46,526 bases of DNA from a virus: the IMG/VR virus record IMGVR_UViG_3300042876_000947, positions 1-46,526 of that record; one strand, given 5' to 3'. Positions 6,743 through 24,358 of this stretch are shown here, in pieces. How positions within the stretch are numbered: position 1 is the stretch's first letter; every line of letters begins with the position of its first letter. The notes beneath the pieces are model-generated. The model saw only the letters and a list, made by a program, of their open reading frames with translations. It ran no database searches and was not told where the DNA came from. The translations under genes and the position numbers were made by a program.

Positions 6743-7144
6743 CTACCCGCCGGCGGGGGTGGGGTCGAACTCGATGTGCAGGTGCGCGCCGGTCCACTGG
6801 CCGCCCACGCCGGCGGCGGCCGCACTCGCGTTCGTTCGCTCGTCCAGGACGTCGAACGCGCCCGCCGGCTTCGAGAGCCGGGCGCGGATCGCGGCAATGA
6901 CGGCGGGGGCCTTCTCGGCCAGCGGGTAGCTGAAGTCGCAGGCGTCGACCACGCCCTTGCGGTGCGCCCGCTTCGGGTCCCGATCGGTCCCGTGGAGCAG
7001 CGTCACTCCCCACGGCCCGGCCCGGTAGCAGCTCGTCACCGTCGCCTCGAGGCCGGCGCGGCGGAACTCCTCCTCCACGACGGCGATCCCGTGGAGCAGC
7101 TCAGCGGAGGCGTGGTCGAGGCTGGCGCCCGGCTTGATGCGCAT
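6743..7144 (-). CDS. Endolysin: M15-like peptidoglycan peptidase
   Basis: A 133-aa protein of the zinc D-Ala/L-Ala-type carboxypeptidase/endolysin fold. The visible metal-site candidates are H and D in KRAHRKGVVDACDF (about residues 69-79) and the closing GAHLHIEFDP near the C-terminus. The N-terminal segment contains SCYRAGPWG. It would cleave peptidoglycan cross-links at lysis. ATG 7144 is preferred to the upstream GTG (7153) because TGATACGT sits exactly 7 nt before it, as at four other genes here; there is no Shine-Dalgarno. It is divergent from the plus-strand lipoprotein gene. Confidence 0.72.
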   Translation of the reverse strand: MRIKPGASLDHASAELLHGIAVVEEEFRRAGLEATVTSCYRAGPWGVTLLHGTDRDPKRAHRKGVVDACDFSYPLAEKAPAVIAAIRARLSKPAGAFDVLDERTNASAAAAGVGGQWTGAHLHIEFDPTPAGG

Positions 7145-7151
7145 GGCCCCC

Positions 7152-7159
7152 ACGTATCA
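7152..7159 (-). promoter_or_regulatory. TGATACGT start-proximal element, endolysin
   Basis: Read on the minus strand this is TGATACGT, then exactly 7 nt (GGGGGCC), then ATG at 7144. The same 8-mer with the same 7-nt spacing precedes three more minus-strand genes, and a one-base variant a fourth. No Shine-Dalgarno is present. The divergent plus-strand gene has a related TGATACGC at 7220-7227, 6 nt before its ATG. Confidence 0.65.
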
Positions 7160-7219
7160 AGGGACGCGCGCCAGGCGATTCGCGCGCTTGATCCGCCTCG
7201 CGAGCAGCTCCTGCTCCGC

Positions 7220-7227
7220 TGATACGC
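7220..7227 (+). promoter_or_regulatory. TGATACGC variant before the lipoprotein gene
   Basis: TGATACGC lies 6 nt before ATG 7234 on the plus strand, with GGGAG between. It differs from the minus-strand elements by the last base and the spacing. It may belong to the same control class, linking the cargo gene to late expression, or be a coincidence. Confidence 0.4.
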
Positions 7228-7233
7228 GGGAGC

Positions 7234-7740
7234 ATGAAGACCGCGATCGTGACGGCGATGATGCTGGGGGCGGCGGGGTGCGGGCGCTTCGATCCCTGTG
7301 AGGGCGCGACCTTCTGCGTCGACGAGGTCGGGATCTACGTCGAGTCCGGCGAGACGTGGATGCACGCGGCCGACACCGAGCAGCGGATCCGGCGCGCGCT
7401 GGCGATCTCGATGGCCTACTGGGGCGCCGCCTCGCTTCCCGGCGTGCGGATCCACTTCATGGACGCGAGCGCCTGCGGAGGCGCCGGGGGCGGCTGCACC
7501 GCCTACTACGACCCGGACGGATGGGTTCCGAGCGGCTCCGACTACACCTACCGCGAGATCGAGATGAACGTGGCCGACGGCGTCGGCGCCGGTCACTGCG
7601 TCGAGTCGACCCCGCTCGCACACGAGGTCGGGCACGCAGCAATCTGGGACCCCGGCCACACCGATCCTCGGTGGGCCGGTCAGGTCACGCTCTACCTCGA
7701 GCAGCTCGCTCCGGTGAGCCTCTACCCGGACTGCTACTAG
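7234..7740 (+). CDS. Lipoprotein with HExxH metalloprotease motif (lone plus-strand cargo gene)
   Basis: A 168-aa protein with a lipoprotein signal (MKTAIVTAMMLGAAGC, lipobox AAGC, Cys 16) and a zinc-peptidase motif TPLAHEVGHAAIWDPGHTD near residue 130: HEVGH plus a later His in GH, recalling metzincin HExxHxxGxxH sites with altered spacing. Further Cys pairs suggest disulfides. It is the only plus-strand gene inside the minus-strand late block. It has its own start region, and its stop shares the CTAG (7737-7740) with the convergent fibre gene. The layout is typical of a moron acquired from a host; it may alter the lysogen's surface. Substrate unknown. Confidence 0.72.
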   Translation: MKTAIVTAMMLGAAGCGRFDPCEGATFCVDEVGIYVESGETWMHAADTEQRIRRALAISMAYWGAASLPGVRIHFMDASACGGAGGGCTAYYDPDGWVPSGSDYTYREIEMNVADGVGAGHCVESTPLAHEVGHAAIWDPGHTDPRWAGQVTLYLEQLAPVSLYPDCY

Positions 7741-8264
7741 TCCGCCGGCGCCACCATCGTGACGCTCACCCTGTCGCCCGCGCCGATCACGAACATCGAC
7801 TGCATCGCGGTGCCGTCGTCATAGAGGGCGGCGCGCAAGGTGCCGCCGTCCATCGCGAAGAAGCACGGATGCGTGACCCCGGTCGAGGAATCCAAGACGG
7901 TGCCCATGGCGAAAACCGACGCGGTGCAGAAGAACCCCTCCGGAACCGTGCAGATGCTCGTCCAGGCAGCGCCGGCGCCAGCTTCGGCTGAGATCGTCAC
8001 GCAGGAAACGCGTCCCGCTCGCCGCACCTGAGGCGTTGCCACCGTTGACCATCCCGTGGACATGGTCGGCGACGCCACCTCGTCCAGCCACTGCAACCAC
8101 TTGTAGACGAGCCGCATCCACCAGTTGAGCCCGCCGCTCGTCGGGATGTCGCCGCCCGTCGCGTAGCCGGAGTCCTTCTTCCCCTCCGTGGGCTCGAGTT
8201 CGTTCGCGCCGGGAACGCCGGCGACGGTCTCGGACCAGCGGGGGAGCGATGCGGGCTTCGCCAT
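7737..8264 (-). CDS. Tail fibre-like protein
   Basis: A 175-aa protein. Its N-terminal 65 residues (MAKPASLPRWSETVAGV..., PTEGKKDSGY, then a Trp-rich NWWMRLVYKWLQWLDE) match the start I recognise from many phage tail-fibre or fibre-attachment proteins. The rest is Ser/Thr/Gly-rich beta-type sequence with several Cys. It follows the DUF2612-type baseplate gene, the usual place of the first fibre gene. GTAGGAG precedes ATG 8264. Probably the fibre or an adaptor to the LamG fibre farther downstream. Confidence 0.7.
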   Translation of the reverse strand: MAKPASLPRWSETVAGVPGANELEPTEGKKDSGYATGGDIPTSGGLNWWMRLVYKWLQWLDEVASPTMSTGWSTVATPQVRRAGRVSCVTISAEAGAGAAWTSICTVPEGFFCTASVFAMGTVLDSSTGVTHPCFFAMDGGTLRAALYDDGTAMQSMFVIGAGDRVSVTMVAPAD

Positions 8265-8273
8265 GGGGATCTC

Positions 8274-8837
8274 CTACGCCGGCAGCGCGTCGGCGAGCTT
8301 GCCGACGTCGAGCCCCGGGCCGATGTCGAGGGTGAAGGTGTTGGCCGGCACGTCGTTGGGGGCCTCGACGATCGCTCGCACCCCGCCCGCCTTCGCGAGG
8401 TGAAGCAGCGACGCGAGCTCCTGCGCCGCCACACCAGGGCTCAGGCCAACCCGGAGAACGAAAGCCGCTGGGTACTGCTCCTCCAAGTCGAGCGCCGTCA
8501 TCCCCTGCGTGATGCCGGCGAAGATCTGGAGGATGTCCTCGGGGCGTCCGCTCCCCTTGTTGAGCCGCACGCGAGCGAGGATCCAGATCCGATAGACCGG
8601 ATCCGTCCGCCCTTCGCGCGGCTGCCCGACGATGCGCCCGAGGACGTCGAGCTGCGCGCCCTCGGCGGTCGCCACCGCGCGCCGCAGCCGTATGTCCCAG
8701 AGGACGTCCTCCAGCTCCTGGAGCGGCGCGCAGAGCGCGGAGATAAGCGCCGGAACCGAGACCCCTTCGCGGTACTGCTGCAGGAGCCGCGCGACAGCCT
8801 GGTCGGCGTGGTCCGTGATGTGGGTAGGCGTTCCCAT
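8274..8837 (-). CDS. Baseplate protein, DUF2612 / P2 gpI type
   Basis: A 187-aa protein with the family pattern of myophage baseplate wedge/fibre-connector proteins: an N-terminal helical part (HADQAVARLLQQYREGVSVPALISALCAPLQELEDVLWDI), then AEGAQLDVLGRIVGQPREGRTDPVYRIWILARVRLNKGSGRPEDIL. The second stretch is the hallmark of DUF2612-like structural proteins. It acts at the baseplate periphery connecting the wedge to fibres. It lies directly after the gpJ gene (3-nt gap) and before the fibre gene, the usual myophage order. Confidence 0.82.
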   Translation of the reverse strand: MGTPTHITDHADQAVARLLQQYREGVSVPALISALCAPLQELEDVLWDIRLRRAVATAEGAQLDVLGRIVGQPREGRTDPVYRIWILARVRLNKGSGRPEDILQIFAGITQGMTALDLEEQYPAAFVLRVGLSPGVAAQELASLLHLAKAGGVRAIVEAPNDVPANTFTLDIGPGLDVGKLADALPA

Positions 8838-8840
8838 GAT

Positions 8841-10154
8841 CTACAGGTGGTTGACCCGCACCCGAGCGGAGTCGAGGACCGCGAGCTCGCGGGCGGCGAT
8901 GGCGAGCGTCGTCTCCGTCGCTGGCCAGGCCGTGAGGCCGATCCGGATCACGGGAACGTCCGTCACGCCCGACACGGTGACGAGCTTCTTCAGCGCCCAC
9001 GCGATCACGTCGTCGCCGGCGGCGTAGACCTTCGCCACGAGCTGCGCCTTCACCTGGTCGTCCCCGTCCGCCGGGTAGCTCGCGTCGTGGACGATGTCGA
9101 CGTCGAGGTAGACGAGCTTCTCGGTCGGCCGGCTGAACTCGACCGTGTGGCTCACGCCCTGCGAGTCGAGGACCGTCCCCGTCACCCCGCCGTGCGTCTC
9201 GATCCCCGCCGCCTTCGAGCCCCAGAGCGCGTCCCGGATCGCCTGGTCCGCGCCGCCCGAGACCATCACCTCGATCGCCTTCGGCGGGATCCCGTCGCCG
9301 TCGGTCGCCGACGTCGTGTTTTCGAAGACCGTCACCGCGGTGACGTTGTCGACCGCGAGCACGTCGGCCCGGATCGCGTCGAGCGCGGCACCACCGACCG
9401 ATCGCAGCTCGTCCTCGCGCCGGATCCGGAGCGCCGCGGCCGTCTCCAGGTCGGCCCCCACCACCGCGTCGAGCGGGTTCCGCACCGCGTTCCAGCCGGA
9501 GACCGGCGTCTCGATGACGGTGACCGTCCCGGCGAGCGCCTGCTTCGGGCCGGTCTCCTCGGCCACCGCGGCGACCTCGGCGCAGGCCGTGCCCGTGATG
9601 ACCCACTTCCAGGTCACGCCACCGTCGGTGATCGCGCTCCCCTGCCCCGTCGGCCCGCCCGAGGCGGCCGAGGTGCCGGCGACCGTGACCTCGTAGATCT
9701 CCCCGCCGTTCTCCCGACGCTGCCCCACCGTGTAGGCGGTGCCGCCCGCCCACGCGGTCACCGCCGCGATCGTGGCCGCGGCCGTCGTCGCGAAGCGGTA
9801 GGCCGTCCCGGTGGCGCTCGCCACCCGACCCGCCTCGAGCACGGTCCCCGCGGTCCCGGCCGCCACCAGCGTCACTGTGCTCGCGCGCGCGGGCTCTCGC
9901 AGGGTCCCCGTGATCGCCGCGATGGCGTCCTGCGCGTCGCCCTCGTTCGCGTCGGGGTCCATGGCCCGGTAGACGTCCTCGGCGAGCTCCCAGAGCTGCG
10001 CCTCGCGCTCGGCGAGGCCTCCGACGAGCTGCCCCTCGACGCTGCGCGGGTCGCTCGGGTCCAGCCCGGCCGACCGGAATACGGCCTCGAGCTCCTCCCT
10101 GCAGACCGAAAGGGGCTTCGCCACGAAGCCGGTGAGGGTCACGCCGTAGGCCAT
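8841..10154 (-). CDS. Baseplate wedge protein, gpJ-like
   Basis: A 437-aa baseplate assembly protein J. The N-terminus (GVTLTGFVAKPLSVCREELEAVFRSAG) and the central GWNAVRNPLDAVVGADLETAAALRIRREDELRSVG are diagnostic, followed by AIRADVLAVDNVTAVTVFEN. An inserted module near residues 130-190 (YTVGQRRENGGEIYEVTVAG...GGVTWKWV) is the small beta domain often carried by these proteins. The wedge protein joins the baseplate hub and sheath initiator. ATG follows the upstream stop by 3 nt (TAA-CCC-ATG) without a Shine-Dalgarno, suggesting reinitiation. Confidence 0.9.
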   Translation of the reverse strand: MAYGVTLTGFVAKPLSVCREELEAVFRSAGLDPSDPRSVEGQLVGGLAEREAQLWELAEDVYRAMDPDANEGDAQDAIAAITGTLREPARASTVTLVAAGTAGTVLEAGRVASATGTAYRFATTAAATIAAVTAWAGGTAYTVGQRRENGGEIYEVTVAGTSAASGGPTGQGSAITDGGVTWKWVITGTACAEVAAVAEETGPKQALAGTVTVIETPVSGWNAVRNPLDAVVGADLETAAALRIRREDELRSVGGAALDAIRADVLAVDNVTAVTVFENTTSATDGDGIPPKAIEVMVSGGADQAIRDALWGSKAAGIETHGGVTGTVLDSQGVSHTVEFSRPTEKLVYLDVDIVHDASYPADGDDQVKAQLVAKVYAAGDDVIAWALKKLVTVSGVTDVPVIRIGLTAWPATETTLAIAARELAVLDSARVRVNHL

Positions 10155-10157
10155 GGG

Positions 10158-10511
10158 TTAGATCGTCCCCTCCACGGCGCCGAACTCGGTGGCCGCGGTG
10201 AAGCGGCCCGAGAGAGCGCGCGCCGCGGCGTCGAGCGAGAGGGTGAAGGTGAGGATGCCGGTGACACCCGGGACGTCGAGGATCTCCGCCCGCAGGCGCC
10301 GCTCGATCGCCCCCAGGTTCGGCCGCTTCTTCCCAAGGACCTCCGTCCAGTACGGCACGCCGATCGACTCGTCGAGGAACCACTCGCCCCTGAAGGTCTT
10401 CAGGCGGGCGGCGATGTCCTGGGCGACCAGGTCCTTCCCGGTCGCGAGCGCGAAGTGGCCGCGCTCGATCACGAGCTCGCCCGACGACGTCTTGATCCGG
10501 ATCGCAGCCAC
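10158..10511 (-). CDS. Baseplate protein, gp25 / gpW-like
   Basis: A 117-aa protein of the T4 gp25 / P2 gpW family. Visible signals are an acidic N-terminal beta region, EWFLDESIGVPYWTEVLGKK (about residues 40-60) and the C-terminal RRLRAEILDVPGVTGI. It nucleates sheath polymerisation at the baseplate. GTG 10511 (V-A-A-I-R-I) is preferred to the GTG at 10520 because the start-proximal element lies exactly 7 nt before it and the N-terminus then starts at the domain. There is no Shine-Dalgarno. It is followed by gpJ, the universal order. Confidence 0.85.
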   Translation of the reverse strand: MAAIRIKTSSGELVIERGHFALATGKDLVAQDIAARLKTFRGEWFLDESIGVPYWTEVLGKKRPNLGAIERRLRAEILDVPGVTGILTFTLSLDAAARALSGRFTAATEFGAVEGTI

Positions 10512-10518
10512 GGGGACC

Positions 10519-10526
10519 ACGTATCG
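10519..10526 (-). promoter_or_regulatory. CGATACGT start-proximal element, gp25-like gene
   Basis: On the minus strand CGATACGT, 7 nt (GGTCCCC), then GTG at 10511. It differs from TGATACGT only in the first base and keeps the exact spacing. It lies after the TAG stop of the spike gene (10537), so the stop codon does not explain the motif. Confidence 0.6.
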
Positions 10527-10536
10527 CCAGCCGGGC

Positions 10537-11184
10537 CTACTCGGAAACCTTCACGGTTCCCGACTTGACGGTCTTCGCCGCCCCCAGGCTTGCCGTCGTC
10601 GCCGAGGCCACGGCGGCGCCCGTGACGGGACTGCCCGGCGACGCCGACACGAGGCCAGCGGCGGGCACCGGATGGGTGTGGCTGGCGAACTTGCTGCGGA
10701 GGTCATCGAGCTCGTCCCGCACGTCCTGCCCCAACGCCGCGGGCTGGAACGTCCCCCCGTCCTTCCCGAGCGTCACCCCGTCCGCAGCCGCGCCGCTCCA
10801 CGGGGAGCTGAACGACCTGAGCCCCGGGATCGCGATGGCGTCGGAGAGCGCGTGCCGCCGGGGATCCCCGGGGTCCACTTCCCCACCCTTCTCGAGCCAG
10901 AGGTCGAGCGAGCGGTCCGAGAAGACCAGGAGGACGACATCCTCGACCGCGAGGGGGAACGTGAGGCGGAACCCGCCGGCGCCGGGCCACATGATCGGCA
11001 CGTTGGTGATGACCGGGACCGAGACCGCCTGCCCTTCGAAGACGTCCTTCACGAGCGGCTTCGCGTCGAGCTGGCCCTTTGCGAGGTCGACCCGGACAAC
11101 CTTCGCCGGAATCGACACATGCAGGTCCGCCGCCCCCTCGCGCACGAAGGCCCGGATCACGTCAGCGAGGGAGGGCGCGCTCAC
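10537..11184 (-). CDS. Baseplate spike, Gp138-N / gpV-like
   Basis: A 215-aa protein. The N-terminal 110 residues carry the OB-fold pattern of the Gp138 N-terminal domain of membrane-piercing spike proteins (LHVSIPAKVVRVDLAKGQLDAKP, VPIMWPGAGGFRLTFPLAVEDVVLLVFSDRSLDLW). A C-terminal repetitive region with HTHPVPAAG, typical of spike tips, follows. It forms the central needle that punctures the outer membrane. GTG 11184 overlaps the hub gene stop by 4 nt (GTGA). Confidence 0.85.
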   Translation of the reverse strand: MSAPSLADVIRAFVREGAADLHVSIPAKVVRVDLAKGQLDAKPLVKDVFEGQAVSVPVITNVPIMWPGAGGFRLTFPLAVEDVVLLVFSDRSLDLWLEKGGEVDPGDPRRHALSDAIAIPGLRSFSSPWSGAAADGVTLGKDGGTFQPAALGQDVRDELDDLRSKFASHTHPVPAAGLVSASPGSPVTGAAVASATTASLGAAKTVKSGTVKVSE

Positions 11185-12032
11185 AGGGGCCGCGCCTCCA
11201 CGTTCGAGAACCACTCCTGGCCGTGCGAGTCGCCGGCGTGCTCCACCGACTCGATCCGGTAGAAGCCGCTCAGGCTCGCCGTCTCGAGCCTCATCGCGCG
11301 CATCGGCCGCAGTTCGCCGTTGAGGAGTGCCCGCGCCTTCAGGAGGGACACGGGGGACGCCTCGCCCTCGACCTTCTCCGGCGCCCCGTGGTCGGGGCTT
11401 CCGAGCAGGCCCGTCGCCGGCGACAGCACCACCGCGGGCTCGCTCGTCGGCTTCTCGATCTCGGTGATGACGAGACCCCCGTCCTGGACGGAGTACTCCG
11501 CCGCGATCGACGCCATGAGGCGGTCGCCCTCCTTCATCGTCCGCCCGTGCGCCGTGTAGCCCTGGGCGAAGACCTCCCTGAGCCCCGGGAGGCCGCGCTC
11601 CTGGATGGCTCGCCTCGCGTCGCCGACGTCGACGCCGAGCTGCTTCAGGTCATCCGCCCAGCGCGCAAGGACGTCGCCCTTCTTCGTCCCAGCCTTGAAC
11701 GAGAAGGAGGAGAACCCCTGGTAGGCCTGCTCTCCGTCCCCACAGCGGATTCGCGTCGACCAGTCGGCGCCGTCCCGCACGTGGTCGATGGTGCGCGCCG
11801 GCCCGGCGAAGATGACGCCGGCCGAGCCCTTGTAGCCCGCGAAGAGGACCACGGGGGGCCTGGCCGTTGCCGAAAGCTTCGCTCGCGTGGCGGCCGCGAG
11901 GTTCGAGATCTCGAGCTCGAGCGTGTTCGCGTCCGCCTTCGCCGTCTTCTTCGCCTTGAAGCGGATCCGGAGGCCGACGATCTCGGTCTCCCCGACGATC
12001 GCCTTCCAGTCGCGCTGGAAGTTGGCCGCCAT
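11181..12032 (-). CDS. Baseplate hub protein (gpD / gp27-like)
   Basis: A 283-aa protein in the position of the tail hub between the baseplate plug and the spike. Its pattern (LRIRFKAKKTAKADANTLELEISNLAAATRAKL, then VVLFAGYKGSAGVIFAGPARTIDHVRDGADWSTRIRCGDG) is that of the Mu/Bcep-type hub proteins related to P2 gpD. The C-terminal SGFYRIESVEHAGDSHGQEWFS closes the fold. It connects tube and spike. It overlaps its neighbours at both ends, so expression is coupled. Confidence 0.82.
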   Translation of the reverse strand: MAANFQRDWKAIVGETEIVGLRIRFKAKKTAKADANTLELEISNLAAATRAKLSATARPPVVLFAGYKGSAGVIFAGPARTIDHVRDGADWSTRIRCGDGEQAYQGFSSFSFKAGTKKGDVLARWADDLKQLGVDVGDARRAIQERGLPGLREVFAQGYTAHGRTMKEGDRLMASIAAEYSVQDGGLVITEIEKPTSEPAVVLSPATGLLGSPDHGAPEKVEGEASPVSLLKARALLNGELRPMRAMRLETASLSGFYRIESVEHAGDSHGQEWFSNVEARPL

Positions 12033-12352
12033 CAGCTCGCCTCGACGTAGAGCAGCTGGACCCGCGACCCGAGGTCCATCCTCCCCGCGTCACGGTTCTC
12101 GCCTGACGTGTCGTAGGCGATGAGCGTCCCCGGCGGGAGGCGGGCGTCGGAGGACCGCCCGAGAAGGGCAGCCCCGAGGACGACGCGGCGACCGGAGAGG
12201 AGCGCGGTCCCGTCGGTCGCGAAGAGCGACAGGAACCACGCCTCCGATCGCCCGTTCCAGCGCAGCTCGAGCGTGTAGACCCGCCCCTCCAGCGTCGTGG
12301 AGAAGTCGTAGTGCGGAGCTGCGGCGTCGGCGGCGAGGACGAGGGTGGCCAT
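12032..12352 (-). CDS. Baseplate plug protein, DUF6983-like
   Basis: A 106-aa beta-rich protein (FSTTLEGRVYTLELRWNGRSEAWFLSLFATDGTALLSGRRVVLG) with the pattern of the small baseplate plug family placed between the Dit-like gene and the hub in many myophages. The strand pattern of alternating hydrophobics with a conserved W-N...W-x-L is visible. ATG follows the upstream stop by 3 nt (TGA-GCC-ATG). It probably closes the tube inside the baseplate before spike release. Confidence 0.75.
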   Translation of the reverse strand: MATLVLAADAAAPHYDFSTTLEGRVYTLELRWNGRSEAWFLSLFATDGTALLSGRRVVLGAALLGRSSDARLPPGTLIAYDTSGENRDAGRMDLGSRVQLLYVEAS

Positions 12353-12355
12353 GGC

Positions 12356-12946: not shown

Positions 12947-12949
12947 CGG

Positions 12950-15041: not shown

Positions 15042-15051
15042 GGGTCAGCTC

Positions 15052-15477: not shown

Positions 15478-15486
15478 CGTGGCTCC

Positions 15487-16803
15487 TTACGGGGCGAGCG
15501 CGCCCTGGATGGACAGCTTGTGGATGGCGCCGGCGAGGGTGCCGGCGAACGTCATGCCCGGGAAGTAGCGGTTCCCGCGATCGGTCGAGCTCTGGTCGAC
15601 CACCTTCGGGACGACGATCGACGTCGAGCCCTCGGCGATGAAGCCGGTCCGCTCGAACGCGCGCAGGCTCGCGGCGATCTCCCCCTGGACGATCGTCGCG
15701 CCGGCGTCGGTGTACGCGATCTTCTTCGCCTTGCGGAGCGCGTCGAAGATGCGCCCCTGCATGTCGACCTTCAGGGCGTCGCGTCCGCGGATGACGTCGA
15801 TCCACTCGTTGGCCGCGACCTTGCCCGAGTCGGACGAGCTCACGTTGACGCCGGCGAGGGCGTAGTACCAGTTGCCCCGCTTCGCCGCGAGGTTGGTCCG
15901 GTGCGTGCCGGTGAAGGCGCGGGCGGTCGCGCCCGAGACGGTCTTGAGCGCCCAGGTCTCGGAGCCGGGGTCCTCCGGGAAGAGCCGCCCCATGAGCCCG
16001 GCGTCGAGCACGGGCTTGTTGGACGGGTCGTACCAGAGCGACGTGCGGGCGTGCGCCAGGTCCTTCTCCGCCTTCATCACGTCCGTCGCTCCGGACTCGG
16101 CGACGGCGATGCAGGCCGTGTCCTGCGTCTGGGCGACGTACAGCTTCTCGTTCGCCTCGGCCCACGCGGCCGCCGCCTGGATGCAGGCCTTCGAGTTGTG
16201 GAGGGTGAGGAGCCCGTACCAGTCGGGGTCCTCGAGCGCGATGGCGGCGAGGTCGGTGGCGATGCCCGGGTCGGCGTGGTCCTGGACGAGCGACAGCAGG
16301 TTGACGTCGCCGACCTCGACCTCCTGCCACGCGCCCTGCGCCGCGGTGAGGACGAGGGTCGAGGTCCCGGAGGCGGTGAGGCCGTGGGTGCCCGTCGCCG
16401 CGTTGATGGCCGTGGTGAGGCCGGTCACGACCTCGGCCGCGGTCGGCGTGGCGTCGGAGACGAAGTCGTAGGCGACGCCGGCGATCTTCACCCGGTAGGT
16501 CTGGATCGCCTGCACGCTCACTTCCGGCGTGAGGGTCCACTTCTGCGTGGGCTTGAGCGCGGCGCGCCCGATCTTCACCCTCGGCGGGCACGGGTTCTGG
16601 CTGAAGATCGCCTGCGCGGCGAGGTACTCGGGCGTCGTCGCCGCGAAGTCCACGGCCACGTCGGGCAGGTTCGAGTAGGTCCGGACGCGCTCCGGCCAGG
16701 TCTTCGAGTAGCCGCCGAGGATGAGCGGGGTGCCGAAGCCGGGGAGGCTCAGGCCGCCGCCGGACGTCGAGATGGTCACCTGGGCAACGTCGGAAAGGGG
16801 CAC
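15487..16803 (-). CDS. Contractile tail sheath, DUF3383-like
   Basis: A 438-aa protein with the DUF3383 sheath pattern: N-terminal VAQVTISTSGGGLSLPGFGTPLILGG, central DPDWYGLLTLHNSKACIQAAAAWAEANEKLYVAQTQD, then SLWYDPSNKPVLDAGLMGRLFPEDPGSETWALKTVSG and TNLAAKRGNWYYALAGVNV. It forms the contractile tube, so the phage is a myovirus. AGGAGG lies 5-6 nt before GTG 16803. It is one of the best identified genes in the window and fixes the tail type. Confidence 0.93.
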   Translation of the reverse strand: MPLSDVAQVTISTSGGGLSLPGFGTPLILGGYSKTWPERVRTYSNLPDVAVDFAATTPEYLAAQAIFSQNPCPPRVKIGRAALKPTQKWTLTPEVSVQAIQTYRVKIAGVAYDFVSDATPTAAEVVTGLTTAINAATGTHGLTASGTSTLVLTAAQGAWQEVEVGDVNLLSLVQDHADPGIATDLAAIALEDPDWYGLLTLHNSKACIQAAAAWAEANEKLYVAQTQDTACIAVAESGATDVMKAEKDLAHARTSLWYDPSNKPVLDAGLMGRLFPEDPGSETWALKTVSGATARAFTGTHRTNLAAKRGNWYYALAGVNVSSSDSGKVAANEWIDVIRGRDALKVDMQGRIFDALRKAKKIAYTDAGATIVQGEIAASLRAFERTGFIAEGSTSIVVPKVVDQSSTDRGNRYFPGMTFAGTLAGAIHKLSIQGALAP

Positions 16804-16812
16804 GGGTTCCTC

Positions 16813-17358
16813 CTACGGCGCGTCGAACGACCCCCACGGCGAGGCGATCCCGACGGTGTCGATGTAGCCGGTCTTCTCGGTGGCGGTGTCCATGGTGCGG
16901 AGCCTCACGTCCAGCTTCGCCCTCGACTCGATGTCGCTGGCGAAGAGGGCTGACAAATCCTGCGTATCACCCACCTCGATCACGGCAACGCCGGCGACGC
17001 GCAGCTGCTCGAGCGCGCTCGGGAGGCGCAGCTTCATCACCGCGGCGCCCAGGAGGGCGGCGGCGGAGCTCGCGCCGGAAGTCGCTCCCGCGATCAGCTG
17101 GACGGTGAGCACCCACTCCTGGTGCTCGGTGAGAGTGATCTCGACCTCCTCGCCTGGCGGGTTGGCGAGGTTCGTGGCGTCGGTGAGCGCGCCGCCGAGC
17201 CCGAGCCTCGAGGGGCCGACGAGCTTCAGCGTGGCGAAGGGCTTCGCCGGCGACGGCGCGTTCGGGCCGTCCCAGATGACCTGGCCGGCGGCGAGCCCCA
17301 GCGCGGCGACGACCCGGGCGTGGAGCGCATCCTCGGCGGCGGCGCGGTCGAAGGCCAT
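16813..17358 (-). CDS. Neck / tail terminator protein
   Basis: A 181-aa protein between the head-tail connector genes and the sheath, the place of the tail terminator. The pattern PNAPSPAKPFATLKLVGPSRLGLGGALTDATN and EEVEITLTEHQEWVLTVQLIAG (first beta-sheet) followed by RVAGVAVIEVGDTQDLSALFASDIESRAKLDVRL is that of the phage neck terminator family (gp12-like / LIC_12616 type). It caps the finished tail. ATG 17358 has no Shine-Dalgarno; TGATACGT lies 7 nt upstream and overlaps the previous stop. Confidence 0.8.
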   Translation of the reverse strand: MAFDRAAAEDALHARVVAALGLAAGQVIWDGPNAPSPAKPFATLKLVGPSRLGLGGALTDATNLANPPGEEVEITLTEHQEWVLTVQLIAGATSGASSAAALLGAAVMKLRLPSALEQLRVAGVAVIEVGDTQDLSALFASDIESRAKLDVRLRTMDTATEKTGYIDTVGIASPWGSFDAP

Positions 17359-17365
17359 GCGCCCG

Positions 17366-17373
17366 ACGTATCA
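17366..17373 (-). promoter_or_regulatory. TGATACGT start-proximal element, tail terminator gene
   Basis: On the minus strand TGATACGT, 7 nt (CGGGCGC), then ATG at 17358. Its TGA is the stop codon of the upstream connector gene. No Shine-Dalgarno is visible between the stop and the ATG. Confidence 0.65.
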
Positions 17374-18284: not shown

Positions 18285-18286
18285 CG

Positions 18287-18631: not shown

Positions 18632-18634
18632 GGG

Positions 18635-19021
18635 CTACCCCTGCGCGCCCGCGACGGGCGCCGCCGGCGCCTGGGGCTTCGCCGGGGTGATCTCCTCGAG
18701 CTGCTCCTCGATCGCCTCGAGGACGCCCTTGCGCTGCTCGTCGGCGTACCACTTCTCGAGCAGGTCTTTGTCGACGGTCTTCTTCACCGTCGCGATGGCC
18801 TCCGGGACCTTCATCGCGGCGAGCCCCTGCGCGCCCGCGACGGGCGCCGCCGGCGCCTGGGGCTTCAGGACGCCGAGGCGGACGAGGTCACGCACGAGCT
18901 CGATCTTGAGCGCCTCCTTCCACGCGGCCTCCTCCACCTCGTTGATGCCCGGCATCAGGGTGCAGTGACCGCCGAGGTTGTGGATCCGCGGCTGGGTGTT
19001 CTCGACGAGCAGCTTCGGCAT
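18635..19021 (-). CDS. Capsid-region protein with internal duplicated tail
   Basis: A 128-aa protein. The first 50 residues (KLLVENTQPRIHNLGGHCTLMPGINEVEEAAWKEAL) resemble small proteins found between capsid and connector genes. The segment PQAPAAPVAGAQG occurs twice, at about residues 54-66 and again at the C-terminus, encoded by an exact 43-bp direct repeat. The linker between the copies is charged and helical. The C-terminal copy and linker look like an internal duplication that extended an older, shorter protein. AAGGAG precedes ATG 19021. The function is unknown. Confidence 0.72.
   Translation of the reverse strand: MPKLLVENTQPRIHNLGGHCTLMPGINEVEEAAWKEALKIELVRDLVRLGVLKPQAPAAPVAGAQGLAAMKVPEAIATVKKTVDKDLLEKWYADEQRKGVLEAIEEQLEEITPAKPQAPAAPVAGAQG
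18638..18680. repeat. 43-bp direct repeat, copy 1
   Basis: Exact copy of 18824-18866, beginning CCCCTGCGCGCCCGCGACGG and ending GGGGCTTC on the plus strand. It encodes the C-terminal PQAPAAPVAGAQG of the 18635-19021 gene. Confidence 0.85.
18824..18866. repeat. 43-bp direct repeat, copy 2
   Basis: Exact copy of 18638-18680, 186 bp away and in the same reading frame (186 is a multiple of 3), so recombination between the copies would delete 62 residues and keep the frame. Confidence 0.85.
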
Positions 19022-19108
19022 AGGTGACTCCTTGCTGAGGGCGGTGATGCAAGAAGGCCCGGCCGCCCGACGTGGACGGCCGGGCCGGGCGGTGCTGCCG
19101 GGGTAGAG

Positions 19109-20041
19109 CTAGATCCCGTCGCCGTAGGCCACGGAGAGCGGCAGCGGGCAGATGACGCCGCCGCAGCGCGCGTGGCACGCGATGACCGTCTCGAGGCCGT
19201 CCTGCTCCGGGGCGAGCTGCTCGAAGTCCTGGGGGATCTCGAGGGTGAGGTGCTCGGGGTCCCGCCGGTAGACGACCATGCGGTCCTTGCTCGCCGCGCC
19301 CGCGCCGGCCGCCTCGAAGAGCGGCTCGACCGCCTTGATGTAGGGGTCGTTGGCGAGGAAGTACTTGAGGATCGTCACCTCGGAGGTGGCGTCGATCCGG
19401 GTCGTCGCGATGTAGCCGTACTGCGAGGCCGGGAGGAGCATCGTGTCGGGGGACTCGACGCCCTTCGTCTGCTCGAAGACGTACTTCGCGATCCCGTGCA
19501 TGTCCTTCAGGATCTCGGTGGGCGTCTTGCCGGCGCCCGCGACCCACGTCGCCACGCCACCGGCGCCGTTCGGCACCGTGTAGCTGAGCGCGTTGGTGAT
19601 GTTGAGGAGCCCGATGAGCCCCATCGTCGCGTTGCCCTTGAGGCCGATCGAGTTGATCGTCTGCTCGATGGCGCGGCGGGCCATGGCGGCCTTCCGCATC
19701 TCGAGGTTCGCGCCGGACTTCGCCGAGGCCCGGACCTCCTGGAGGCCGTAGCCGTAGGAGGAGCCGATCCCCTTCACGGGCGAGCGGACCTCCTTCGCCT
19801 TCACGTCCGCGCGGGGCAGGTCGTCCGAGTAGGAGGCGAGGAGCTTGGCGACGCCGACGCCGTCGTACTCGTGGTAGACGATCGTCTCCGTCGCCGGGTC
19901 GGCCTCGAAGGAGACCGGGATGAGCGTCCGCGCCTTGAACTGCGCGTAGCGGGCCTCGTAGACGCGCGCCTTCACGAACTCGAGCTTGCGCTCGAAGGTC
20001 ATGTTCTCGGCGGCGTCGAGGTGCGGGTGCTGGAACTTCAT
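19109..20041 (-). CDS. Major capsid protein, DUF2184-like
   Basis: A 310-aa protein with the DUF2184 capsid pattern: LEFVKARVYEARYAQFKARTLIPVSFEADPATETIVYHEYD, then a region ending GYGLQEVRASAKSGANLEMRKAAMARRAIEQTINSIGLKGN, then SYTVPNGAGG and YIKAVEPLFEAAG. The C-terminal ending GGVICPLPLSVAYGDGI is typical. It forms the HK97-fold shell. AAGGAG lies 8 nt upstream of ATG 20041. It follows the decoration-like protein at 20072. Confidence 0.9.
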   Translation of the reverse strand: MKFQHPHLDAAENMTFERKLEFVKARVYEARYAQFKARTLIPVSFEADPATETIVYHEYDGVGVAKLLASYSDDLPRADVKAKEVRSPVKGIGSSYGYGLQEVRASAKSGANLEMRKAAMARRAIEQTINSIGLKGNATMGLIGLLNITNALSYTVPNGAGGVATWVAGAGKTPTEILKDMHGIAKYVFEQTKGVESPDTMLLPASQYGYIATTRIDATSEVTILKYFLANDPYIKAVEPLFEAAGAGAASKDRMVVYRRDPEHLTLEIPQDFEQLAPEQDGLETVIACHARCGGVICPLPLSVAYGDGI

Positions 20042-20071
20042 GTGCGGTCTCCTTGTGGCGGCGCGCGCCGC

Positions 20072-20569
20072 TTACGACAGGTTCACGAGCTGCGAGAACG
20101 AGACCGCGGCGATGCCGCCCGCGGCCGCCGTGGAACGGAACTTCGCGCCCTTGACGATCGCGGTCTCGCTCGTCACCGCGCTCTTGCGGAACCCGCCGAG
20201 CTGCGTGCCGCCGGCGCCCGTGGCGTACCGGACGTAGACGGGGTCGCCGTCGACCACGGCCTCCTCGGTGATGACGTACGCGACGCCCTCCTCGAGCAGG
20301 TTGAAGTCTCCGTCGATCGGGATCCCGTTCGTGTCGGTGAGGCCGAGCTGGTCGACGTCGTGGCTGTGGAGGGCGATGCCGTAGACCTTGTCGCCCGCCG
20401 CGTTGGGGAGGTCGTACTTCCCGTCGCCGGTCGCCTTGGTCACGGCGACGCCGAAGGGGATCTGCGCGCCCTGGGCGTTCACGCCCGTGGAGACGCGCTT
20501 GAAGGAGAGGTCGGCGAGCTGCCCGGCGAAGCCGGGAGCGAGGGTGTCGGAGTAGCTGGTCTGGGCCAT
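20072..20569 (-). CDS. Capsid decoration / structural protein
   Basis: A 165-aa protein in the slot between the protease/scaffold gene and the capsid gene, where Bcep-type myophages carry a decoration or minor structural protein. The pattern LAPGFAGQLADLSFKRVSTGVNAQGAQIPFGVAVTK, YGIALHSHDVDQLGL and EEGVAYVITEEAVVDGDPVYVRYATG fits these beta-rich proteins. AAAGGA precedes ATG 20569. It probably binds the outside of the capsid. The family name is not certain. Confidence 0.72.
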   Translation of the reverse strand: MAQTSYSDTLAPGFAGQLADLSFKRVSTGVNAQGAQIPFGVAVTKATGDGKYDLPNAAGDKVYGIALHSHDVDQLGLTDTNGIPIDGDFNLLEEGVAYVITEEAVVDGDPVYVRYATGAGGTQLGGFRKSAVTSETAIVKGAKFRSTAAAGGIAAVSFSQLVNLS

Positions 20570-20598
20570 CGGTCAGGGTCCTTTCGATCCGCGAGGGC

Positions 20599-21180
20599 TC
20601 AGGCCTTCACGGCGGAGAGCGGCTTCTTCCACGCGTCCTCGGCGTCCTTGCGCGCCTGAAGGCGGGCCTTCTCGGCGTCGAGGGGCTCGCCGTCCTTGCG
20701 CTCGCCCTTGTCGTCGGCGGCCGCGCGGGCGGTGCCGGCCGCGTTCTTCACGGCGGACTCGATCGCGGCGTCGAAGCGCGCGTCGACGTAGTCGGTGCTC
20801 TTCCCGTCGAGCTTCAGCTCGGGGTGGAGCTTCGCCAGGACGGCCGCCTTGATGGCCGGCGCGTCCATCTCGTCGAGCTTCGCCTCCGCGCCGAGGACCT
20901 CGCGGGCGCGGGAGATCAGAGCCACGCGGGCGTTGACCTGCCCGGTGATCTTCTTCGGGTCGGCCGCGTCGGCGCGCTCGGTCTCGAGCTTCTTCGCCTT
21001 CGCCTCGGCCTCGTCGGCGCGGGCGGTCGCCTTGTCGGCGGCGGTCTTCGACTCCTTCGCGATCTTGTCCGCGGCGTCCGCGCGCTGGTCGCGCGCCTCG
21101 AGCGCGCGCTGGATGAGCTGCGCGGCCTGGTCGTTGGCGACCTCGATCTCGATCCCGTCCAGCTTGAGCTTCACCGTCAT
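20599..21180 (-). CDS. Nested in-frame scaffold protein
   Basis: Inside the protease gene, an in-frame ATG at 21180 (M-T-V-K-L-K-L-D) is preceded by TTCAAGGAGACCCAG: AAGGAG 6 nt before the ATG, stronger than the gene's own start signal. The 193-aa product would be the coiled-coil scaffold without the protease, as in lambda C/Nu3. A GATACGT element lies about 60 nt upstream (21241-21248) and could supply a separate transcript. Seen: the start signal. Inferred: use. Confidence 0.65.
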   Translation of the reverse strand: MTVKLKLDGIEIEVANDQAAQLIQRALEARDQRADAADKIAKESKTAADKATARADEAEAKAKKLETERADAADPKKITGQVNARVALISRAREVLGAEAKLDEMDAPAIKAAVLAKLHPELKLDGKSTDYVDARFDAAIESAVKNAAGTARAAADDKGERKDGEPLDAEKARLQARKDAEDAWKKPLSAVKA

Positions 21181-21798
21181 CTGGGTCTCCTTGAAGGGTT
21201 CACGGGGGTCGCCCCGGCCCGGGTCCTGCTGACGATCCGCACGTATCGGCGGGTCTGCCTCGACGCAAATTGCGTCTTCGGAGTCGAGCTTCAGGCTCGC
21301 CACCGGGCCGGCCCGCGCGCGGTCGACGAGCGCGCAGTGGTTGACCACGATGTCGCGCTGGATCGCGTCGTAGCGCTGCCCGTTCCACTCGCCCGGCGTG
21401 GGATCGAGCTCGCAGACGTAGCCGAGGGAGAGCTGGTTGCGCCCGCCCCTCACCTTCGCGATGGTGTCGCCGTCGGTGATGAGCGCCACCGCGCGCACGA
21501 CGTCGCCGTCGCGCCGGATGCCCTCGCTCAGGTGCCCGACGGTGAGCGCCTTTGCGTTCTGCGGGGTCACGAAGCCCGCCGCCGGGTGGTCGTCGGTGAT
21601 CGGCGCCATGCCGATCGAGGCGAGCGAGTCGGGCCGGAAGACCTCCTCCGGGAGCCGAAGCTCGCGCCGCACCGTCCCGTCGGCACGGCGGTACTCGAAG
21701 ACCCCGACCCGGGTGAGCACGGCGGGCGCCCGGAGGAACCCGGACGCGGTGATCTCGGACTTGTCGAGCGTGGCAGTGTCGTAGCGGCGGACCGTCAT
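20599..21798 (-). CDS. Prohead protease fused to scaffold, DUF2213-like
   Basis: A 399-aa protein. The N-terminal 190 residues are DUF2213-like (FEYRRADGTVRRELRLPEEVFRPDSLASIGMAPITDDHPAAG..., NQLSLGYVCELDPTPGEWNGQRYDAIQRDIVVNHCALVDRARAG). Candidate catalytic positions are the H in DDHP and the S in LSLGY. The C-terminal 190 residues are Ala/Lys/Glu-rich coiled coil, scaffold-like. ATG 21798 is chosen over the GTG at 21807 because the start-proximal element lies exactly 7 nt upstream. An internal strong start at 21180 would yield the scaffold part alone. Confidence 0.85.
   Translation of the reverse strand: MTVRRYDTATLDKSEITASGFLRAPAVLTRVGVFEYRRADGTVRRELRLPEEVFRPDSLASIGMAPITDDHPAAGFVTPQNAKALTVGHLSEGIRRDGDVVRAVALITDGDTIAKVRGGRNQLSLGYVCELDPTPGEWNGQRYDAIQRDIVVNHCALVDRARAGPVASLKLDSEDAICVEADPPIRADRQQDPGRGDPREPFKETQMTVKLKLDGIEIEVANDQAAQLIQRALEARDQRADAADKIAKESKTAADKATARADEAEAKAKKLETERADAADPKKITGQVNARVALISRAREVLGAEAKLDEMDAPAIKAAVLAKLHPELKLDGKSTDYVDARFDAAIESAVKNAAGTARAAADDKGERKDGEPLDAEKARLQARKDAEDAWKKPLSAVKA
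21241..21248 (-). promoter_or_regulatory. Internal CGATACGT element upstream of nested scaffold
   Basis: CGATACGT on the minus strand inside the protease gene, 60 nt before the nested scaffold start at 21180. No start codon follows at 7 nt, unlike the other copies. If the element is a promoter it would make a short-leader scaffold mRNA; if it is a translation signal this copy is not used. Confidence 0.35.
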
Positions 21799-21805
21799 GG
21801 GCTGC

Positions 21806-21813
21806 ACGTATCA
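21806..21813 (-). promoter_or_regulatory. TGATACGT start-proximal element, protease gene
   Basis: On the minus strand TGATACGT, 7 nt (GCAGCCC), then ATG at 21798. The TGA is the stop of the head morphogenesis gene. No Shine-Dalgarno lies between. Confidence 0.65.
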
Positions 21814-22764
21814 GGAGCGCGCGCGCGGCCCCGGCCGGGCGGCCCAGGGCAGGCCCGGATCGGCCGCTGCAGCCTCCGCCGGCGGCGGCTCGGAGGTGTC
21901 CGGCGGCTCGCCGAGCAGCTCGTCGAGGACGGGATCGGCGAAGCACCGGCAGTTGATCGCCTCGCCGGGGTGCCCGTCCTCCGGCGGGTCGTCCCAGGAG
22001 AACGTTTTCCCCTCGAGGGCGGCGTGCTCGTCCCGGACGCGGTTGTCCTTCAAGGTGCGCCAGACGTAGCGGCTCACCCCGAGCTGCGTTTGGCGGGTCC
22101 GGTTGAGGTCGCCGTAGAGCTTCCCCACCTGGTCCCGCGCGATCAGCTTCGCCCGGCTCTCGGTGACGCCGTACCGTTCCTCGACGAGGTCCGCGAGCTC
22201 CTCCCAGCGCTGGCCCGTGCGCAGCCCCGCGACGAGCCGCTTCTCGAGGTCGCCGAAGAAGTCGGTCGCCACCGACTTGATGAGCGCGACGTTCTCGCCG
22301 GTGAAGGTCGCGATCTGGGGGCGCAGCCAGGGCTCGTAGCGCGCGACGTCGATCCCGAGGGTCGCCATCATCTGCTTCGCGAGCTGCTCGCGCTGGAAGT
22401 CGCTCGTCCGATCAGCGAAGACCTCCGCGAGGCGCCGGAGCCGCTCGTTCGGCCACTCGGCGAACCAGGCATCGGAGAGGGAATCGAGCAGGTCGTTGAC
22501 GGACTGCGCCCAGGCGTCCCGCCGGAGCCCATCCAAGCGCTCGAGCGCCGCCTCCGCGGCATAGGACGGCAGGAGGGGGACGAGCCGCGCCCGCACCAGG
22601 ACGCGCGCCCTGCCGATCGCGTCCAGGAGCGCCGCGAAGTAGGCCATGCGGACGGCGTCGGGCTGCAGCTGCGGTGCCGGCCGCCGGCGACGAGGCAGGA
22701 GCCCGATCGCCTTCATCCCGGCGCGCCGCGCTCGGATGGCGGCGATCGTCTCGGCCTTCGTCAT
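21811..22764 (-). CDS. Head morphogenesis protein, Mu gpF / SPP1 gp7-like
   Basis: A 317-aa protein. The N-terminal half is helical (MAYFAALLDAIGRARVLVRARLVPLLPSYA and on). The C-terminal signature is complete: RDQVGKLYGDLNRTRQTQLGVSRYVWRTLKDNRVRDEHAALEGKTFSWDDPPEDGHPGEAINCRCFADP, with the family H, W-D-D-P, H-P-G and C-R-C positions visible. It is a minor head protein bound to the portal. Located directly after portal and a small Cys protein. ATG overlaps the latter's stop by 4 nt. Confidence 0.92.
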   Translation of the reverse strand: MTKAETIAAIRARRAGMKAIGLLPRRRRPAPQLQPDAVRMAYFAALLDAIGRARVLVRARLVPLLPSYAAEAALERLDGLRRDAWAQSVNDLLDSLSDAWFAEWPNERLRRLAEVFADRTSDFQREQLAKQMMATLGIDVARYEPWLRPQIATFTGENVALIKSVATDFFGDLEKRLVAGLRTGQRWEELADLVEERYGVTESRAKLIARDQVGKLYGDLNRTRQTQLGVSRYVWRTLKDNRVRDEHAALEGKTFSWDDPPEDGHPGEAINCRCFADPVLDELLGEPPDTSEPPPAEAAAADPGLPWAARPGPRARS

Positions 22765-22931
22765 GGCTCCTCGAGGAGTCGAGGCCGGGCGCGCCGCTTC
22801 GGGACGAGGCTCGTCCGTAGGTCACGCCAGCACTGGCGGCACATGTCGTGGTCCTTCATCGAGGTCGAGCCCTTGCGCTTCCCGCGGGGCGGGACGATCG
22901 CCGGTCGCCCGCACTCGCAGATCCGCTTCAC
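22761..22931 (-). CDS. Small Cys-rich protein between portal and head morphogenesis genes
   Basis: A 56-aa protein from GTG 22931 (V-K-R-I-C-E-C-G) with two Cys pairs, C-E-C-G at the N-terminus and C-R-Q-C in the centre, and a basic remainder (GKRKG, KRRARPR). It overlaps the portal stop by 4 nt and the head morphogenesis start by 4 nt, so it is translationally coupled to both. Probably a one-zinc protein. No family is recognised; the position suggests a head or packaging accessory, or host-directed factor carried along. Confidence 0.68.
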   Translation of the reverse strand: MKRICECGRPAIVPPRGKRKGSTSMKDHDMCRQCWRDLRTSLVPKRRARPRLLEEP

Positions 22932-24343
22932 GGCGCCGGCGGCGCGCCCTTCGCGGGCGGGTCGTCCTCGGGGGCCGGCTCGGGCGTCTCCTTCGCCTTC
23001 GCGCGGATCGCGGCGTCGAGCACCAGATCCTCGCCGTAGGTGTCGCCTCCGAACCGCGAGACGGCGACCTCCTCGGGCATGACCGCGCCCATGTTCGCGT
23101 AGGCCTGGTCGGCCTGCGCGTTCTTTAGCCGGCGCTCGGCCTCCTGGAGCGGCGTGAGCTGGCGCAGCGGGCGGAACCGGACGGACCACTTCGCCGGCTC
23201 CTTCCCCCTCGTCGGCCCCTCCTTCGCCAGCATCACGAGGCGGACGAGCCGGTTGAGAGGCTCGCGGAGCTGCTCCTCCTGCATCCCCTCGATGTGCTCC
23301 GAGAACCAGTCCTGCCCCGACGCGTCGCCTGTGGAGAGGCCCTTCGGTGAGTCACCCCAGACGAGCGTCACCGGCATGTCGGCCGCCGCTGCGAAGCGCG
23401 TCTTGAACTGCTCGAGCATGTCCGAGTACCCGGCGAGCGGCGTCGCCTTGCGCTCGAACGTCTCGCCGGCGTCGCCGGTCTCCGGATCGCCGGCGTCGAG
23501 AAGCGCGGCGCGGACGATCGAGCGCCCCATCTCGATCGCCTCGATGCGCTTCCGGATGAGGTCCTCTTGCCCCGACGCGATGGCGGCCGCGAGGCCCTGA
23601 ATGCGGAAGACGGCCTGGGAGAAGTCGCTGAGCAGGTGGGCCGCGCCGCCGAACGCCATCCCGACGTCCGAGAGCACCTCCATCACTCGGACGAAGACGC
23701 TGTCGCCCCAGCTGTTGCGCTCGGCAGCGTGCCGGCGCGAGACCTGGATGCCGCGGAAGATGAGCATCCGCGACTCGTGCACCCGCGCCCCGAACTGCGC
23801 CGCCTGCCCGCGCGGGTGGATCTCGTAGACTGACGGCAGGCCGTACTTCTCGTCGCTCAGCCCCCGGTAGAACTCGACCGGCTGCAGCTCGTCGGCGTCG
23901 AAGACGGTGAGCCAGCGGATGGTCCGCAGCCGCTTCTCGTCGAGCGGCTTCGTGAGGTCGATCCAGCCGTCGTCGGTGCCCAGGAGGATGCCCGCGCCCC
24001 CGTAGGCGCGGCACTTCTGGAGCGCCTCCCGCAGCGCCGCCCGCGCCTTGAGCTCGTCGAGCCGCGCGGCAACCGCCTGCGCGACCTCCGCTTCGCCCTC
24101 CACGAGAACATCGATCCAGCGCCGCAGCATCTCGCGCGGGGGCTTCTCGACGATCTTCGCGGCGAGATCGTCCCCGCGCCAGAGCTCCTCGGCCTCCTGG
24201 GTGGTGATGTGGCGCGTCGCGATCCGGGTGCCGAGGCGCTTGTCGCGGGAGAGCCGGCCGAGCCCGGTGAGGACGTTCTCCCAACCGTCGGATCGCTGGT
24301 CAGGGGCTGCGTCGGTGCGAGGGCGGCGCTTCGATCGGGCCAT
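22928..24343 (-). CDS. Portal protein, DUF1073-like
   Basis: A 471-aa portal of the DUF1073 family: NVLTGLGRLSRDKRLGTRIATRHITTQEAEELWRGDDLAAKIVEKPPREMLRRWIDV, QKCRAYGGAGILLGTDDG, then RMLIFRGIQVSRRHAAERNSWGDSVFVRVMEVLSDVG and PVTLVWGDSPKGLSTGDASGQDWF. It forms the dodecameric DNA channel. The C-terminus is acidic and Pro-rich. ATG 24343 lacks a Shine-Dalgarno; TGATACGT lies 7 nt upstream. It follows the large terminase by 28 bp, a spacer otherwise empty. Confidence 0.92.
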   Translation of the reverse strand: MARSKRRPRTDAAPDQRSDGWENVLTGLGRLSRDKRLGTRIATRHITTQEAEELWRGDDLAAKIVEKPPREMLRRWIDVLVEGEAEVAQAVAARLDELKARAALREALQKCRAYGGAGILLGTDDGWIDLTKPLDEKRLRTIRWLTVFDADELQPVEFYRGLSDEKYGLPSVYEIHPRGQAAQFGARVHESRMLIFRGIQVSRRHAAERNSWGDSVFVRVMEVLSDVGMAFGGAAHLLSDFSQAVFRIQGLAAAIASGQEDLIRKRIEAIEMGRSIVRAALLDAGDPETGDAGETFERKATPLAGYSDMLEQFKTRFAAAADMPVTLVWGDSPKGLSTGDASGQDWFSEHIEGMQEEQLREPLNRLVRLVMLAKEGPTRGKEPAKWSVRFRPLRQLTPLQEAERRLKNAQADQAYANMGAVMPEEVAVSRFGGDTYGEDLVLDAAIRAKAKETPEPAPEDDPPAKGAPPAP

Positions 24344-24350
24344 GCGACCG

Positions 24351-24358
24351 ACGTATCA
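24351..24358 (-). promoter_or_regulatory. TGATACGT start-proximal element, portal gene
   Basis: On the minus strand TGATACGT, 7 nt (CGGTCGC), then ATG at 24343. Here the terminase ends upstream with TAG (24372-24374), so the TGA of the element is not needed as a stop codon. This copy therefore shows that the full 8-mer is maintained for another reason. Confidence 0.68.

Follow-up and report, generated by a model that had tools for sequence, protein, structure and literature searches.

Introduction

The window analyzed here is the whole of IMG/VR virus record IMGVR_UViG_3300042876_000947, 46,526 nt of an uncultured, high-GC, temperate phage with a contractile tail. Its virion and integration genes include those for a serine recombinase, portal, DUF2213 protease, major capsid protein, tail terminator, sheath and gp25. 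Ahead of several late genes, and inside two of them, lies an oriented 8-bp sequence, YGATACGY (hereafter the box), which we examine as a candidate late promoter element. Among 50,697 phage records none is closely related to the phage (the top portal match is 31% identical), scans of genome contigs for a host with the major capsid protein found nothing close, and neither Rfam families nor tRNAs were matched. Genes and start codons were taken from a gene caller run in this analysis.

Two related records are used most. G001 (IMGVR_UViG_3300034088_000041) is complete, as indicated by its 127-bp terminal repeat, and is 77% identical to the window at aligned residues; the repeat was not seen in the window, yet the window matches G001 across nearly its full length. 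G007 (IMGVR_UViG_3300038549_000056) is 49.1 kb long, also has a 127-bp terminal repeat and shares approximately 50% identity with the window in the portal, capsid and baseplate J proteins. A homologue of the window's large terminase was not found in G007, though most other virion genes are approximately 50% identical. Box copies in close relatives share descent and are not independent, the most independent tests being G007 and a further relative, L118. Inspection of G007 led us to widen the box from YGATACGY to YGATANGY, and counts of the wider form in that genome are descriptive rather than a blind test.

Boxes at the starts of late genes

The window contains exactly eight copies of YGATACGY, against a mean of 1.25 under an order-3 Markov null (1.25–1.49 with G001). 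Four are TGATACGT, all on the minus strand with exactly 7 nt between box and ATG, at 24351–24358 ahead of the portal gene, 21806–21813 ahead of the head protease gene, 17366–17373 ahead of the tail terminator gene and 7152–7159 ahead of a putative endolysin gene. By dinucleotide shuffling 0.12 copies of TGATACGT are expected, and 0 of 100 shuffles reached four. A fifth copy, CGATACGT at 10519–10526 (−), stands 7 nt ahead of the GTG of a gp25-like gene, so that YGATACGY-N7-RTG occurs five times in the window versus an order-3 Markov mean of 0.01. No usable Shine-Dalgarno sequence was found at any of these five starts, although many neighboring genes have one. An earlier sequence-only reading of the window had described these five sites and their lack of Shine-Dalgarno sequences correctly; its inventory was incomplete, since the box is YGATACGY and three copies had been missed, at 21241–21248 (−) in the protease gene, at 16962–16969 (−) in the tail terminator gene and at 7220–7227 (+) ahead of a divergent gene.

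With the eighth base past the box taken as +1, the predicted transcription start of the portal gene (22928–24343 (−); Pfam Phage_portal_3, E 2.1e-74) is the A of its ATG at 24343, which would make the mRNA leaderless. The corresponding predictions are 21798 (ATG) for the DUF2213 head maturation protease (20599–21798 (−); Pfam DUF2213, E 1.2e-42; PHROG head maturation protease, E 1.2e-98), 17358 (ATG) for the tail terminator (16813–17358 (−); Pfam Phage_tail_terminator_9, E 1e-17), 10511 (GTG) for the gp25-like baseplate wedge protein (10158–10511 (−); PHROG baseplate wedge subunit, E 6.8e-30) and 7144 (ATG) for the endolysin (6743–7144 (−)). The last, of 133 aa, is assigned only putatively to the M15 type from H/D/HxH residues read by eye; neither PHROGs nor, at E 0.001, Pfam gives a match. 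The plus-strand copy, TGATACGC, precedes a gene at 7234–7740 (+) within the late region that runs away from the endolysin gene and encodes a metalloprotease-like lipoprotein of the HExxH kind (HEVGHA in the translation; 74% identical in G001). The orientation of the box agrees with that of the downstream gene, this opposite-strand gene included.

The TGA stop codon of the upstream gene falls inside the box at the tail terminator (17371–17373) and the protease (21811–21813). At the endolysin, gp25 and protease genes the box also contains an in-frame GTG (within ACGTG); gene callers may therefore start these genes 9 nt early, the conserved start being the one 7 nt past the box.

Conservation in related genomes

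G001 likewise contains exactly eight copies of YGATACGY, each orthologous one-to-one to a copy in the window. The bases that flank the box differ between the two genomes at four starts (portal, endolysin, gp25 and the divergent gene), where the box itself is retained; at the endolysin position the downstream genes have no mutual tblastn match, and box and spacing are identical. Further copies are present in L037, G002, G003 and G004, and L118 has four, two of them as a back-to-back divergent pair. Position by position, the portal box is conserved in G001, L037 and G004; the protease box is CGATACGC-N7-ATG in G001 and TGATACGT-N7-ATG in L037; the tail terminator start box is TGATACGC-N7-ATG in G002 and is kept in G001 ahead of an inserted gene; the gp25 box is conserved in G001, G002 and L118 (with ATG there); and the endolysin box is conserved in G001 and, with a spacing of 6 nt, in L118.

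In G007, variants of the form YGATANGY occupy five of the window's positions, namely the portal (CGATAAGT-N7-ATG), protease start (TGATAGGT, followed by a 13-nt leader), protease interior (CGATAGGT), tail terminator interior (TGATACGC) and gp25 (TGATATGT-N7-GTG), and TGATACGT stands ahead of a head-morphogenesis gene and of a lysis-region gene. In all, G007 has five N7-RTG sites, above the null of 0.12. The strict form followed by N7-RTG occurs three times in G007 versus 0.12 under the null; one of the three, at 9882, opens a frame of only 10 codons and was set aside as probable chance. The box was not found in the other relatives, including L039–L043 (51–54% capsid identity).

Leaders and boxes inside genes

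Whether a boxed gene has a Shine-Dalgarno sequence depends on where its start codon lies. Where the start codon falls on the eighth base past the box there is none, and where it lies further downstream (at the gene inserted in G001, a predicted nested scaffold gene, the sheath gene and two others) one is present. The insertion in G001, past the tail terminator box, reads TGATACGT-CGGGAGG-AAGGAGACCCACATG, and a 12-nt leader with a Shine-Dalgarno sequence (AAGGAGACCCAC-ATG) now begins where the A of the ATG formerly stood. In the divergent pair of L118, one box has an ATG at +1 and the other continues as GGGAGGTCGTGATG (leader GGGAGGTCGTG-ATG), and the protease box of G007, TGATAGGT, is followed by GAGAGGGCCCCATATG (leader GAGAGGGCCCCAT-ATG). 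The short leaders past the box in these three genomes all contain a Shine-Dalgarno sequence or something similar.

The box within the protease gene, CGATACGT at 21241–21248 (−), has its predicted +1 at 21233 (G), 53 nt ahead of an in-frame ATG at 21180 that carries AAGGAG. The same distance to an ATG with AAGGAG is found in G001 and in L037, where the box is again CGATACGT, and in G007 CGATAGGT lies 53 nt from an in-frame GTG with GGAGG. With its start conserved in these four genomes, the frame at 20599–21180 (−) is probably a nested, scaffold-like gene encoding 193 aa. The box within the tail terminator gene, TGATACGC at 16962–16969 (−), has its predicted +1 at 16954 (G), 151 nt upstream of the start of the tail sheath gene (15487–16803 (−); PHROG tail sheath, E 3.6e-93), which has an AGGAGG Shine-Dalgarno sequence. 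The codons that spell the protease-interior box (ATA, CGT, GAT and CGT) are rare and are all retained in G001, where retention overall is 22% for CGT and 18% for GAT (18–22% across CGT, GAT and GGT); the GGT GAT ACG codons of the tail terminator interior are retained in G001, G002, G003 and G007. It is from this conservation, and not from the number of internal boxes, that we argue they are probably under selection. Taken with the leaders, the internal copies indicate that the box fixes an event at its own eighth base and not at the start codon, which points to the start of transcription.

Anatomy of the box

Alignment of 33 copies gives the consensus YGATANGY-SGGNNSC-R. The eighth base past the box is a purine in 31/33, and in the remaining two the ATG begins at the seventh base. 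In promoter numbering, Y−15, G−14, A−13, T−12 and A−11, which are extended −10 positions, are present in 33/33 copies (T−15 in approximately two thirds, otherwise C), and G−9 and Y−8 are likewise fixed. Among the 33 copies the positions upstream of the box all stay at or below 0.35 bits over background, hence there is no conserved −35 element.

A proposed phage-specific late promoter and its alternatives

We consider it very probable that the late genes are read from phage-specific promoters with a single element, of which YGATANGY is the core; from its sequence and context we infer the promoter identity of the box, the exact start site, the late timing and the involvement of a factor. In the proposed mechanism a phage factor or an alternative sigma would redirect RNA polymerase to the box, which spans −15 to −8 and takes the position of an extended −10 element. 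With no −35 contact, the polymerase would begin transcription at the purine that is the eighth base past the box. Where this purine is the first base of an ATG or GTG the mRNA would be leaderless and a Shine-Dalgarno sequence unnecessary; with a start codon further downstream, the mRNA would have a leader that carries one. Several such promoters would feed the portal, protease, nested scaffold, tail terminator, sheath, baseplate, lysis and divergent late genes. A promoter giving leaderless late mRNAs was one of two explanations offered by the sequence-only reading, and the boxes inside genes and the leaders with Shine-Dalgarno sequences both argue for it.

Several observations weigh against this proposal. 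T at −7 occurs in 0/33 copies, which have G, C or A instead and so depart from TANNNT, and a modifying factor must be assumed because T−7, normally needed by sigma-70, is missing. The plus-strand copy in the window lies 6 nt, not 7, from its start (7 nt in G001), and the two internal boxes observed compare with 1.9 under synonymous-codon resampling. Finally, the boxless relative G008 is enriched for TGnTANNNT, a signal that is weak alone (5 versus 1.37, with a maximum of 5 in 60 shuffles).

The G008 result bears on a version of the promoter proposal in which no phage factor takes part and the box serves the host's primary sigma as a weak extended −10 element (TGnTA). The geometry fits that of leaderless genes in high-GC bacteria, in which TANNNT lies approximately 12 bp before the start (PMC3160421), and G008 has TGATANNNT, a canonical extended −10 element, 6–7 nt before the starts of TerL, portal, gp25 and a lysis-region gene, positions equivalent to those of the box. 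In the window's clade, however, T−7 is missing while G−9 and Y−8 are conserved, and TGnTANNNT-N5-8-RTG occurs zero times in the window and in G001. We regard an ordinary host promoter as possible but doubtful. The presence of TGATANNNT at equivalent starts in G008 suggests that late promoters of the leaderless kind are more widespread in the family, with an altered box in the window's clade.

The second explanation of the sequence-only reading, an RNA signal, is improbable. Here UGAUACGU within a long polycistronic late mRNA would recruit the ribosome or a factor from a fixed distance to the start, in place of a Shine-Dalgarno sequence, which would account for the 7-nt spacing to starts that lack one. 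The overlap of two copies with an upstream stop codon, correctly noted in that reading, had been taken to favor an RNA role; this argument fails because many copies begin with C and the TGA is just part of the box. The RNA signal is also at odds with copies that lie away from any start and conserve rare codons, with boxes 53 and 151 nt upstream of starts that have their own Shine-Dalgarno sequence, with copies that have, at the same distance, a leader with a Shine-Dalgarno sequence of its own, and with copies on both strands between divergent genes.

Slightly less probable still is RNA processing, in which a long late transcript would be cut 7 nt past the box to give leaderless or short-leader mRNAs. 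Such cleavage would also yield defined 5′ ends at the eighth base and could work within genes, but no co-oriented gene that could supply a precursor lies just upstream of the plus-strand gene at 7234 or of the divergent pair in L118, and the purine at +1 and the TA at −12/−11 fit promoters.

Candidate transcription factors

For the late promoter proposed here, the sequence-only reading had suggested the sigma-like protein P0006 (31122–31577 (−)), and its sigma likeness is real, with a match to region 4 only (Sigma70_r4, E 1.1e-8). It cannot be the general factor, because G001 and G007, both complete and box-keeping, have no homologue; despite its Sigma70_r4 domain and a homologue in L118, P0006 is barely credible as a late sigma dedicated to the box, since region 4 reads the −35 element and none is conserved. 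The L118 homologue (6059–6301; 52%) lies directly upstream of late tail genes. L118 itself looks rearranged, several baseplate genes being missing.

The only non-virion genes common to the window, G001 and G007 encode the small terminase, a ParB-like protein and a Cys-rich protein of 199 aa. The gene for the last (26284–26883 (−)) adjoins the small terminase gene. The protein is present in the window, G001, G004 and G007 and was not detected in 46 other records searched, many of which are fragments; the box-bearing fragments G009 (15.5 kb) and G011 lack it, G011 stopping short of that region. Four of its Cys are invariant and, with a His, could hold zinc; Pfam, PHROG and PDB give no match, and its structure is predicted with low confidence (mean pLDDT 52). 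By its distribution it is the best phage-encoded candidate for the factor, which may instead be a host protein. We tentatively raise, as an idea more likely wrong than right, that it is a new kind of late factor that would shift the −10 specificity of the host RNA polymerase from TANNNT to YGATANGY, such that leaderless late mRNAs would be made with neither T−7 nor a −35 element needed. The proteins encoded at 26284–26883 and 27066–27944 (−) share a Cys-rich stretch (CxxRQ ... C.SG.C..G), and in G001 a profile of the former weakly matches the counterpart of the latter.

Two further ideas were rejected. Against the ParB-like protein (43059–44957) as the factor, its homologues also occur in boxless contigs, and the box is asymmetric and gene-oriented. 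Against a sigma-28/FliA-like reading, in which the CGATA of the box resembles GCCGATAA, inspection by eye showed no TAAA upstream.

Comparison with known promoter systems

The late promoters of T4, served by gp55, gp33 and the gp45 sliding clamp, consist of an 8-bp box approximately one helical turn upstream, with the −35 region unconserved and either polarity used (PMC2988020). The window resembles this in its 8-bp box near the −10 position and the absence of −35 conservation. It differs in the box itself, YGATANGY rather than the T4 TATA box, in a downstream segment that is G+C-rich (SGGNNSC) where that of T4 is A+T-rich, and in a predicted transcription start that usually coincides with the start codon. 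Among the window proteins scanned, which do not comprise every gene, no gp55 homologue was found, the only sigma-like protein being the region-4-like P0006.

The middle and late mRNAs of Thermus phage P23-45 are reportedly leaderless. The extended −10 promoters of these genes are less affected when the phage protein gp39 displaces sigma region 4 (PMC7403470); the box is like them in occupying extended −10 positions, and differs in lacking T−7 and in its fixed G−9 and Y−8. Leaderless genes of Actinobacteria and Deinococcus-Thermus have TANNNT with the TA approximately 12 nt before the start and no Shine-Dalgarno sequence (PMC3160421, PMC12340547), features that the window shares in TA spacing and missing Shine-Dalgarno sequences, except that the sixth base is never T.

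The start-associated sequences (SAS) of cluster K mycobacteriophages are short repeats that accompany many starts in these phages and mostly share one orientation (PMC3203893). Their sequence, GGGATAGGAGCCC, contains by our own reading a Shine-Dalgarno-like GGAG; the box is unrelated, and genes that start at its +1 have no Shine-Dalgarno sequence. Phage Mu, with its activator C, has several separate late promoters (lys, I, P and mom; PMC4461284), an arrangement like that proposed for the window, in which, unlike Mu, no upstream activator site was detected. Pfam and PHROG scans of window proteins, which did not cover every gene, turned up no activator of the Mor/C family.

As judged from sequence, the box is not a member of the T4, P23-45 or TANNNT classes as defined, because its sequence is unlike that of T4, no gp55 was found among the proteins scanned and T−7 is absent. 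Its interest lies in a compact late regulon that would be readable straight from the genome in a phage group without a close relative, and in its use for correcting gene starts and discovering nested genes. The missing T−7 raises the question of how the polymerase is retargeted; if the Cys-rich protein does so, it would represent a new class of factor.

Other observations

The gene at 45266–45778 (+) encodes a protein with the sequence ATDGHLLI, reminiscent of a DNA polymerase clamp; the protein has no Pfam match and no homologue in G001 or G007. In L039 and L040, sister genomes without the box, an inverted repeat (AGTGCAA..TTGCACT) lies approximately 20 nt before the start of the DUF2213 protease gene and may be another late control site.

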